A stretch of 54,325 bases of DNA from Cytophagaceae bacterium (lineage in GTDB: Bacteria; Bacteroidota; Bacteroidia; Cytophagales; Spirosomataceae), in NCBI GenBank assembly GCA_947494535.1, contig CANLVU010000006.1, positions 1-54,325 of the forward strand. The letters are read 5' to 3'. Below the pieces are notes generated by a model. The model was not told the DNA's origin, searched no databases, and saw only the letters and a list, made by a program, of their open reading frames with translations. Shown here piece after piece: positions 993 to 52,825 of this stretch. The position numbers and the translations under genes were made by a program. Positions within the stretch are counted from its first letter, which is position 1. Every line of letters starts with the position of its first letter.

Positions 993-1019
993 GGCACTTT
1001 TTGTTATTATAAGCCGCGC

Positions 1020-1062
1020 GGTACTGAGTGGGCTTTTCAGGTATTGACATATTTTGTCAATA
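1020..1062. repeat. Dispersed palindromic element, copy 1 (core TTGACA-TATTT-TGTCAA at 1044-1060)
   Basis: GGTACTGAGTGGGCTTTTCAGGTATTGACATATTTTGTCAATA; first 30 nt match the copy-5 arm at 27/30 positions. Confidence 0.8.
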
Positions 1063-1306: not shown

Positions 1307-1726
1307 TTAGTGGTTAGTGACGCCGTGGCGGCGGAATTGAAAATGTCTAAGGGTTACAACTTTTTCTGGATCATAAGTGATGGCATTTTTGAGGAAAATT
1401 TTGAAGTTGAATTTTCTTTCTTGTTTTACCCTGTGAAGTTTAAGAAAATAGAGCAGGTCTTTTTCTGAGTCCGCCAAAGCATCTTCTGCTAAATGTTCAT
1501 AGCCCACAAAGGATCGTTTTATCCGCTCCCGCATCCAATACACGCAAAGTTCGCGTACGTTTACCTGGTGGTAATGGGCAAAAATGATGACGAGGTCAAG
1601 ATCTGGGATGCGGTTACCGTTTTCGTATTTGCTCAAAAGCCCGGCGTCGATCCCGAGATCCTGCGCCATCACGTGCAGTGGAACGGCACGGATGAGCTTC
1701 AGGTATCTAGAGAAGTGGTTAAACAT
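1307..1726 (-). CDS. XRE-family helix-turn-helix transcriptional regulator
   Basis: N-terminal HTH: FSRYLKLIRAVPLHVMAQDLGIDAGLLSKYENGNRIPDLDLVIIFAHYHQV. Confidence 0.75.
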   Translation of the reverse strand: MFNHFSRYLKLIRAVPLHVMAQDLGIDAGLLSKYENGNRIPDLDLVIIFAHYHQVNVRELCVYWMRERIKRSFVGYEHLAEDALADSEKDLLYFLKLHRVKQERKFNFKIFLKNAITYDPEKVVTLRHFQFRRHGVTNH

Positions 1727-1801: not shown

Positions 1802-2098
1802 TTAAAGCTTGATATTTATAATTAATCGACCTCCTAGGCCTAATTCGATAATCTTTTGTAAAGTTGAAATCCGGATTTCTATGAGGTTATTTTCTGCAAT
1901 TGAAATGGCGTATTTAGATGTTCCGCATTTTACAGCAAATTCTTTTTGTGTTAGCCGAAGCTTGTGCCTGGCAATTTTAATCAAGGCGCTTATTTTGAAT
2001 AGTTGTGCTCCCCATTCGAATTCATTTCTGGAGGGAGAGCCTATTTTGCCATAAGTTTCTTCGATGAGTTGATCTAATGTTCTTAAGTTCGATTTCAT
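1802..2098 (-). CDS. XRE-type HTH protein, HigA-like antitoxin family
   Basis: LIKIARHKLRLTQKEFAVKCGTSKYAISIAENNLIEIRISTLQKIIELGLGGRL. Likely start is MKSNLRTL (2098); the ORF-track N-terminus (2099-2173) overlaps a palindromic repeat. Confidence 0.7.
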   Translation of the reverse strand: MKSNLRTLDQLIEETYGKIGSPSRNEFEWGAQLFKISALIKIARHKLRLTQKEFAVKCGTSKYAISIAENNLIEIRISTLQKIIELGLGGRLIINIKL

Positions 2099-37647: not shown

Positions 37648-38366
37648 TGCGTCGGGTGTTTCTTTTGCGCGCTTACGGAGATTTTGCAATAGCGGTGCAA
37701 GGCCTAGCACCCACGGATGAAGTGATTGCGTCTTTGCATTTGAAACCTTTGTACGAGGCACTTGTTTCTAGAGCTTGTATTTCGCCGCGTGAGATAGAAT
37801 TTGTAGATTTTGGAATCCAAGGTTCGCAATTAAATCTATTTACCAATAAGCAGTTTTTGCGCATTGACACATTTCGTCAACTCGCGAAAATCAAAGCTTA
37901 CATTGAATCAAATCCCGGACAAAATGACTACGTAGAACAGAGCGCACGCTTAGGCCTTTTGAATCTATTCACTGGGCACCAGTTTAAATCAATTTTCGAG
38001 ACGGGCAATCCGGTTTACGCAGCGTATGACCTCCAAGTACAGGGATTAGGTAAACAGGGTAATCAGGTGTTAATTCTCCCGGATGCACGACTGGCTAAAA
38101 GAGAAATTCCTGCATCGATTCTTGTGCGTATGAAGGGTAGAGTAGCCCGCTTTGGCAAAGATTATTCAAATTTCGAGCAATTAATCGAATTAATTCAAGC
38201 TGCAGATTATATCTACACGGCTGATTCCTTGCCCCTTCACCTTGCTTATCTATGCCAAAAACCGCATTTCGTTTTATACCCGGAAGGGGGCAAAATAGAT
38301 TTTTTTACGCCCCATGTATTGGCATCTGGCGCATACAGCACGTTTAACCAATTTAACCATGTTTAA
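37647..38366 (+). CDS. Glycosyltransferase family 9-like/heptosyltransferase-like protein
   Basis: MRRVFLLRAYGDFAIAVQGL...; C-terminal YIYTADSLPLHLAYLCQKPHFVLYP. Confidence 0.55.
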   Translation: MRRVFLLRAYGDFAIAVQGLAPTDEVIASLHLKPLYEALVSRACISPREIEFVDFGIQGSQLNLFTNKQFLRIDTFRQLAKIKAYIESNPGQNDYVEQSARLGLLNLFTGHQFKSIFETGNPVYAAYDLQVQGLGKQGNQVLILPDARLAKREIPASILVRMKGRVARFGKDYSNFEQLIELIQAADYIYTADSLPLHLAYLCQKPHFVLYPEGGKIDFFTPHVLASGAYSTFNQFNHV

Positions 38367-51083: not shown

Positions 51084-51815
51084 CTACTTTTTTTCTCTCA
51101 ACTTAAAGTTTTTACCTAAATAAAGTCGACGAACTTGTTCGTCGTCCGCTAATTCTTTTGGCGTTCCCGCCTTCAAAATCTTTCCTTCAAAAAGTAAATA
51201 AGCCCTGTCCGTAATCGACAAAGTCTCATCCACATTGTGATCCGTAATCAAGATCCCGATATTTCTATATTTCAATTTTGACACAATCGTCTGAATCTCC
51301 TCCACTGCGATGGGATCGACCCCCGCGAATGGCTCATCTAATAAGATGAATTTGGGATCTACCGCTAGTGCTCTCGCGATCTCTGTTCTTCTTCTTTCTC
51401 CCCCAGAAAGCACCTGGCCTAAACTTTTACGGACATGGGTTAATGAGAATTCTTCCAAAAGGCTTTCCCCCTTTTCTTTCTGTGCGGCTTTCGACAAATC
51501 CGTCATCTCTAATACCGCCTGGATGTTTTCCTCCACGCTTAATGTTCTGAAAACCGATGCCTCTTGTGCTAAATATCCGATGCCTAATCTCGCCCTTTTG
51601 TACATAGGCAAGTCTGTTACGTCCAAATCACCTAAATACACTTTCCCCTCATTCGGCTTAACTAACCCTGTGGCAATATAGAAGGAAGTGGTTTTCCCTG
51701 CGCCGTTTGGCCCTAATAATCCCACAATCTCGCCTTGCGCCACTTGATACGAAATGTGATCATTCACTAATCGCTGTCCGTATTTCTTGACTAAATTCTC
51801 TGTCCGTAAAATCAT
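51084..51815 (-). CDS. lptB: LPS export ABC transporter ATP-binding protein
   Basis: [59 protein letters not shown]...[16 protein letters not shown]...[14 protein letters not shown]. Confidence 0.96.
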
Positions 51816-51934
51816 GTCCTAAAAATACGAATTATTTCGATGTATTGGTGCTTTGCTTTCTCTGTCGTTCTCAGGTTTAAACCCACTAGGGGCTCTGATT
51901 GTTCAGAATGGCCGGGTTGTGAAATAAATCGTTC

Positions 51935-52136
51935 GGTGCTGAGAGGCATTTTCGGGTATTGACAAATTGTGTCAATACCTAAGTTATCTGGTGCTGAATA
52001 TATAGACCCGGCACCGGTAGCTGTTTTCGACTATTGACAGAATGTGTCAATAAGCGGATATTGATTTTCGTAGCGTTAAATACTATTTTCAGTTGTTGAC
52101 AGAAAGTGTCAATACCTGAAAACGCCTCTCAGTACC
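51935..52136. repeat. Composite palindromic repeat: three TTGACA-N5-TGTCAA cores within 30-bp outer inverted repeats
   Basis: Cores 51959-51975, 52034-52050, 52096-52112. Outer arms GGTGCTGAGAGGCATTTTCGGGTATTGACA (51935-51964) and reverse complement of 52107-52136 GGTACTGAGAGGCGTTTTCAGGTATTGACA match 27/30. Confidence 0.85.
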
Positions 52137-52285
52137 TTGAAGGTATTTGAACACTATGCCGTTTCAGGCAATTAGAGACTTATTGTGGATTATAAACTCT
52201 ATGGAAATTAATACATTCTCTATACTCTCTTATCTATATTCTCCCGTCGAACTAATCCGTAGGCTACCAAGTCACGCAGTGACGA

Positions 52286-52825
52286 CTAGCGACTAGTGAC
52301 TGCACGAAGTGCTTCCCCCCTAACCGTATACCTAGTAGGCGTAGAAAACCAGCGCAAAGCTTGAGAGCCTGAAATGGTATAAGAAACCACACGACCGCTG
52401 ATTAGGCGCATGGATAGTTTTTTAGATGTCGTGTAAATGAGATTTTCGGAGGAAATGACAAATTCTACTACAGCTGGTCTGCCTGCGGAGTCTAGATCAA
52501 TTTGAAAAGATCGAACGGGAAGGTCTTCTCCTTTTTTCAACACGTAATGTATGATGCCTGGGGCGGAGCGATCTTCGTAACTGAGGGCGTAGGCCGGTTT
52601 GTTGAGATCGGCTTCCTGGAAGAGGGCCCATTCTTTAGTTAAATCAATCTGAACGGAATCAATTATTTCTGTGGTTCCATCGAGGATGACGGTCTTTTTT
52701 ACCGAAAGGGGGGAAGATGATAGGCGGTTTAGCTCTTTTTTCCAATCATAGAAATGGGTGGCCGGCTCCGGGGAGGGGGTGCACGCAATGAGTGTAAAAA
52801 GAAGCAAAATGCTGAGGCGAATCAT
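52286..52825 (-). CDS. Putative lipoprotein, unknown function
   Basis: MIRLSILLLFTLIACTPSPEP lipobox (LIAC). Confidence 0.75.
   Translation of the reverse strand: MIRLSILLLFTLIACTPSPEPATHFYDWKKELNRLSSSPLSVKKTVILDGTTEIIDSVQIDLTKEWALFQEADLNKPAYALSYEDRSAPGIIHYVLKKGEDLPVRSFQIDLDSAGRPAVVEFVISSENLIYTTSKKLSMRLISGRVVSYTISGSQALRWFSTPTRYTVRGEALRAVTSR

Follow-up and report, generated by a model that had tools for sequence, protein, structure and literature searches.

Composite palindromic elements built on a near-invariant core and confined to the origin region in one Aquirufa clade

Two composite palindromic sites in one contig

The window, a 54,325-nucleotide stretch of a Cytophagaceae metagenome-derived contig, carries two members of one family of composite palindromic elements. 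Site A, at 51935-52136, lies between an lptB ortholog and a gene for a short lipoprotein-like protein, as an earlier note on this DNA had placed it. The lptB gene is also its neighbour in genomes G002, G007, G008, G013, G019 and G021, and the lipoprotein-like ORF has no Pfam match. The features of site A and its neighbours are as follows, with cores and interiors given without a strand.

51084-51815, minus strand: lptB ortholog (ABC transporter ATPase), left neighbour
51909-51958, plus strand: left arm on the lptB side, ending in ...GTTGTGAAATAAATCGTTCGGTGCTGAGAGGCATTTTCGGGTA; half-site profile 47.7 bits
51959-51975: core 1, TTGACA-AATTG-TGTCAA
51976-52033: interior between cores 1 and 2, with a short hairpin GGTGC...GGCACC
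52034-52050: core 2, TTGACA-GAATG-TGTCAA
52051-52095: interior between cores 2 and 3
52096-52112: core 3, TTGACA-GAAAG-TGTCAA
52113-52162, minus strand: right arm on the lipoprotein-gene side, an inverted copy of the half-site; profile score 62.9
52286-52825, minus strand: short lipoprotein-like ORF, right neighbour

The layout is therefore L-core-58 bp-core-45 bp-core-R. The three palindromes reported in the earlier note are all present, its 30-nt inverted arms (51935-51964 against 52107-52136) match at 27 of 30 positions, and the site is non-coding as claimed, with no ORF of at least 60 aa over it. When extended, the arms are inverted copies over 46 nt at 83% identity. Ortholog alignment shows that the outer part of the right arm, TGCCTGAAACGGCATAGTGTT, is common to the orthologous sites of other species. 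Fold prediction, a check proposed in the same note, found the site A strand far more stable than shuffled sequences (z = -8.2 as DNA and as RNA). Across the window, six matches to the core with one mismatch or none occur, where 0.31 would be expected, and none of 100 dinucleotide shuffles gave more than two; a 1-mismatch core at 37864, inside an apparent coding region, was taken as chance.

Site B, at 994-2207 in the same window, is a second family member that carries genes between its cores, in the layout L-core-[F2, F3, F26]-core-R.

994-1043, plus strand: left arm; profile score 57.9
1044-1060: outer core 1, TTGACA-TATTT-TGTCAA
1094-1294, minus strand: F2, a 66-aa ORF of no known family, between the cores
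1307-1726, minus strand: F3, a 139-aa Xre-type HTH protein (PF01381), candidate core binder
1802-2098, minus strand: F26, a 98-aa HTH_3 protein, HigA-like
2141-2157: outer core 2, TTGACA-GATTC-TGTCAA, about 40 bp upstream of the F26 start codon
2158-2207, minus strand: right arm; profile score 19.0, orthologs aligned

Element anatomy and conservation

The family core, (TA)TTGACA-N5-TGTCAA(TA), is built on the 17-bp TTGACA-N5-TGTCAA and is near-invariant outside N5. The spacer is itself non-random, with G/C, three A/T and then G/C/T. Inverted half-site arms flank the core and reach beyond the 30 nt seen initially, to about 45-75 nt outward. Their consensus, GGCACTATTGTGTGAAATAAACGTCGAGGTACTCAGAGGGCTTTTCAGGTA-TTGACA, reads into the core, with the mirror image on the other side. 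A half-site profile of 56 columns gives real arms about 7-78 bits, and a reversed-sequence control gave no score above -8.9 in 661,456 positions. Nearly all loci follow one order, namely L arm, core, optional cargo with one or more further cores, and R arm, with L always before R. Some copies are one-armed, and a few cores stand without any arm.

Conservation peaks at the centre of the element. Orthologs are 0.44 identical 100 nt away from the core and about 0.9 identical at it; for paralogs the rise is from 0.23 far out to the same level. In the contiguous region of genome G007, an unbiased sample, each detected arm adjoins an exact core, and paralogous arms are 0.4-0.7 identical. Similarity between arms is no greater within an element (0.58) than between elements (0.57), so pairing in a hairpin is not what selection keeps. 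Judged from these patterns, a site for a dimeric protein would fit drifting arms around a fixed core better than a hairpin would. It is quite probable that a dimeric DNA-binding protein recognises the core sequence specifically and that the arms extend its half-sites instead of pairing as a hairpin.

Within a genome, arms resemble each other a little more than they do across genomes, and consistently so (0 of 500 shuffles); this points to gene conversion, re-insertion or a binder that coevolves with the arms. Genome G008 has an arm variant of its own, seen at several sites. Of 64 core sides that lack an arm, 46 keep at most 2 nt of it, and foreign, often low-complexity sequence starts at the core edge. 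These junctions are the strongest support for recombination or mobility, and selection on the core alone would give the same pattern equally well. As a separate observation, low-complexity fillers (CTTTGAACTTTG, TCTACTCTATAATC and similar) stand in place of the missing arm and often end in TC right at the core (L029:2842, L078:1604, L078:9745, L150:2693, L157:2486 and L159:1605).

Distribution within Aquirufa

A scan of the genome collection identified the relatives as Aquirufa antheringensis and uncultured Cytophagaceae MAGs; a lone Streptococcus match was taken as chance. The window's own genome, a 2.03-Mb MAG that is 81% complete, has 11 exact cores against one for a reversed-pattern control, several of them with matching arms. 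Among 38 genomes of the same genus, exact cores number 7-15 each in ten and 0 or 1 in the other 28, where the single cores are regarded as chance occurrences. Core counts, apart from those of the G007 scan, were ascertained by the core itself. Two exact cores in genome G000, at C7:31602 and C22:24861, were likewise set aside as chance, being armless, isolated and coding-looking. Each carrier genome, from one freshwater group of Aquirufa, has about ten intergenic element sites. The earlier note's proposal of a dispersed composite palindromic element is thus borne out in the source genome and its relatives and, because intergenic copies occur at many sites, the element is neither unique nor tied to lptB.

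The family has a single origin in the clade. In an MnmG tree of 30 genomes, which includes eight carriers and leaves out G000 and G027, the carriers group in a single clade supported at 100/100, and element presence changes state once. The intergenic sites are shared in synteny by up to nine species. They include lptB/lipoprotein, holin-like/MFS, rsmG/LytTR-like, phosphoglycerate-mutase-like/FtsB-like, GH3/TlpA-like and others, with gene names read from the sequences by the present analysis. The genes on either side of an element in G007 are never divergent: they converge or run in the same direction. Searches of viral, phage and plasmid collections, including 2.9 million viral contigs, returned no match to the element.

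Confinement to the origin region

Positions were mapped on G007, a complete genome in a single 2,505,188-bp contig with dnaA at its start. Its 18 detectable arms make up nine elements, all within 1,015,817-1,453,039. The origin of replication is placed at 1,241,620, where ten exact DnaA boxes fall within 600 bp, and two exact parS sites lie beside mnmG at 1,235,666 and 1,237,247. Relative to oriC, the elements therefore run from -226 to +211 kb. Exact cores show the same distribution: 475 kb of the origin region holds 13, and 320 kb sampled from the rest of the chromosome holds none. The chance of such clustering is about 2e-7 for nine random sites and 3e-5 with clusters merged. In G019 and G013, parS and an oriC of 9-10 boxes also lie inside the element clusters.

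Neither total GC skew nor skew at 4-fold sites switches clearly at the G007 oriC, so the call rests on DnaA boxes, parS and mnmG. These three occur together in G007, G013 and G019, and dnaA lies nearly opposite in G007. With dnaA at the start of the G007 contig, the elements first seemed to cluster at the terminus; the parS sites and the DnaA-box cluster disproved this. By a crude count, the non-coding fraction is 0.057 near the origin against 0.090 away from it; since it is not higher near the origin, available space does not explain the confinement.

A second intergenic repeat, of CGCGAAGCGATGACTAA / TAGTC type, was seen about 100 bp from several cores, for example at 1181863, 1198810 and 1228241 in G007. 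That genome has eight copies in the origin region (L167-L186) and none in 320 kb outside it, and a similar sequence occurs in the window at 52262-52310.

Cargo genes and a candidate binding protein

Genes found between duplicated cores encode HTH_3 proteins, a DUF4160 pair, a PIN_3 protein with DUF6364 and unknown proteins, and they are small and often toxin-antitoxin-like. Cargo can differ at a single site. At the GH3/TlpA-like site, G007 has a 168-aa protein, and G008, G013, G019 and G030 have the DUF4160 pair. At site B, F26 is present in some carriers only. A PIN toxin with DUF6364 adjoins a core in G030 and G002. Two elements in G013 enclose a pantothenate/CoA gene set (coaBC, panC, panB, panD and type III pantothenate kinase) at L071:2180-6272; no counterpart of this set was found in the G007 origin region.

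F3 lies between the site B cores in every carrier where site B was seen, and in several species a core stands 120-215 bp upstream of it. It is present in eight of ten carriers and in none of 28 non-carriers of the same genus; the two carriers in which it was not found, G002 and G023, have assemblies 81-83% complete. Its HTH half, residues 1-75, is 92-100% identical to the window protein across carriers, and the remainder is 44-92% identical. A fixed HTH half is expected if the DNA target of F3 is fixed. Because F3 and the element are both markers of the clade, their association is confounded by common descent, and F3 stands as a candidate and no more. Its relatives elsewhere in the order are general HTH proteins only (roughly 24-38%), and no homologs were found in phages or plasmids. 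The AlphaFold prediction was uninformative (pLDDT 51), and Foldseek gave no match with E < 1.8. It is tentatively suggested that F3, an Xre-type HTH protein encoded inside site B, binds the cores and regulates its own expression there.

Interpretation and alternatives

The family is clade-specific, origin-confined and syntenic, with composite palindromes built around a near-invariant core. The best explanation, offered tentatively, is that site A belongs to a set of about ten protein-binding elements, inherited vertically, which mark the chromosome origin region in one Aquirufa clade. A dimeric protein would grip the core with the arms as extended half-sites, F3 would be that protein and would control its own gene at site B, and the ten bound sites across about 440 kb would bridge, condense, anchor or insulate the origin domain. 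This last step, drawn by analogy with MatP/matS, is conceivable but somewhat doubtful. A broader proposal, that F3 and about ten elements within ±226 kb of oriC form an independently evolved origin-domain organiser of Bacteroidota, a convergent origin-side counterpart of MatP/matS, is unlikely as it stands. Some features sit poorly with origin-marking sites: the arms greatly exceed matS, parS or NBS sites in length, and cargo genes, one-armed copies and rearranged neighbours would be unexpected for purely architectural sites.

A minority possibility is a non-autonomous mobile or cassette element. The arms would then serve as terminal inverted repeats, or else cassettes would be inserted at the core by site-specific recombination. 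L-core-R would become L-core-cargo-core-R, and nearness to the origin would come from biased insertion, or from repair or tolerance being better there. Frequent, species-variable cargo between duplicated cores, the PIN toxin pair beside cores, foreign sequence at core edges, concerted arm evolution within genomes and the constant L-before-R order are all in keeping with it. However, conservation that is highest at the centre and fades outward is the reverse of transposon ends, the sites are syntenic across the clade, viral, phage and plasmid collections lack the element, and strict origin confinement is left unexplained. Nor was a dedicated recombinase found: the 99%-complete genome of A. antheringensis encodes just two tyrosine recombinases, each of them Xer-like by length and score, the count for G019 and G000 is two each of the same description, Xer-like genes are present in every member of the genus, and carriers have no Y1 transposase. 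The earlier note had also raised a MITE, and this is possible; inverted arms are present, but their conservation fades outward, and a MITE should have sharply conserved ends. One polymorphic site, beside tRNA-Phe, was examined; it is rearranged and offers neither a clean empty/filled pair nor a target duplication. At that site, G019 has an armed element and G000 a bare core (L077:11666 and L030:2829), and G007 (1462300-1462700) has only GGTATACCTG, possibly a core deletion. Strict origin confinement, syntenic retention and centre-peaked conservation place the origin-organising explanation slightly ahead of cassettes.

Cores might instead be local operators of the flanking Xre/HigA-like repressors and toxin-antitoxin-like cassettes, with other armed copies left behind by lost cassettes. 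The cores upstream of F26 and F3 and the nature of several cargo genes agree with this, but most copies lack a repressor gene and lie at a distance from promoters, flanked by convergent or co-directional genes, and an operator does not need arms of 45-75 nt, which makes the explanation improbable. A transcribed RNA hairpin or bidirectional terminator would account for the strong predicted fold (z about -8) and the frequent position between convergent genes, yet it is very unlikely: an RNA family was rejected for want of an Rfam match, the arms of one element show no covariation beyond the common half-site, single-stranded pairing needs no invariant core sequence, and nothing about a terminator would tie it to the origin region. 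Least credible of all is the BIME-like element suggested in the earlier note, that is, REP/BIME repeats moved by a RAYT. The elements are indeed palindromic, intergenic and sometimes composite, but Y1_Tnp (PF01797) was found in none of the ten carriers by a search that recovered Y1 proteins in 12 other genus members, copies number about ten rather than the hundreds, or at least more than 100 per genome spread genome-wide, expected of such repeats, neither GTAG nor CGTC occurs at the edge of the palindrome in the half-site consensus, and confinement to ±226 kb of oriC is unlike REP behaviour. The sister species G015, which has RAYTs and is element-free, carries a REP-like CAAGGTT palindrome family; this was considered as a diverged origin-confined counterpart and rejected because it is genome-wide. 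Nested CAAGGTT/AACGTTG palindromes were noted throughout that genome (C8, L187-L204; L247-L262), and its AAAGTTGACAAATCT repeats look enriched near parS (12 vs 3).

Relation to known systems and significance

The E. coli Ter macrodomain is marked by matS, a 13-bp site with 23 copies in 800 kb (PMC3330122, PMC5023128). The Aquirufa family likewise is a repeated sequence-specific site limited to one replication domain, with multiple short palindromes in one domain of about 0.4-0.8 Mb. Unlike matS, it lies at the origin rather than the terminus, has long conserved arms and cargo genes, and has as its candidate binder a predicted Xre-type HTH protein. It is therefore matS-like in distribution and not a member of the matS family. 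The 17-bp maoS of the E. coli Ori macrodomain (PMC5023128) is also a specific origin-region sequence with the gene of its partner, here a candidate one, beside a site, but maoS is a single site and Aquirufa has about ten long composite elements. The parS sites of ParB, which cluster near oriC (PMC7383237), and the NBS sites of Noc are short palindromes too. Their sequences are unrelated to the element (TGTTTCACGTGAAACA and TATTTCCCGGGAAATA): its palindrome differs from both consensuses, genuine parS sites were found separately, and the elements reach 226 kb from oriC.

REP sequences form a 20-40-bp hairpin with the tetranucleotide GTAG (or CGTC) at its base (PMC3733652; see also PMC2817692). 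REP, BIME and REPIN repeats share intergenic composite palindromes with the Aquirufa family, which differs in having no RAYT and no GTAG-tagged end, in its low copy number and in its confinement. MITEs and integron- or CALIN-like cassettes resemble it in inverted arms and in variable toxin-antitoxin-like cargo between repeated sites. The Aquirufa elements, in contrast, hold fixed syntenic positions and conserve the centre rather than the ends, searches for tyrosine recombinases and Y1 proteins found no integrase or transposase for them, and no target duplication was seen at the tRNA-Phe site.

Few known systems, such as parS and matS, have repeated sites limited to one chromosome domain, and none was found for Bacteroidota in the literature searched. 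The family suggests either previously unrecognised protein-binding sites of the origin region or an oddly placed mobile element, and not an ordinary REP. If the elements are mobile cassettes, they would be a rare mobile family restricted to the origin region, and targeting would become the question. If they are origin organisers, Aquirufa would offer a compact and directly testable case, with a cultivable host in A. antheringensis and a named candidate protein.
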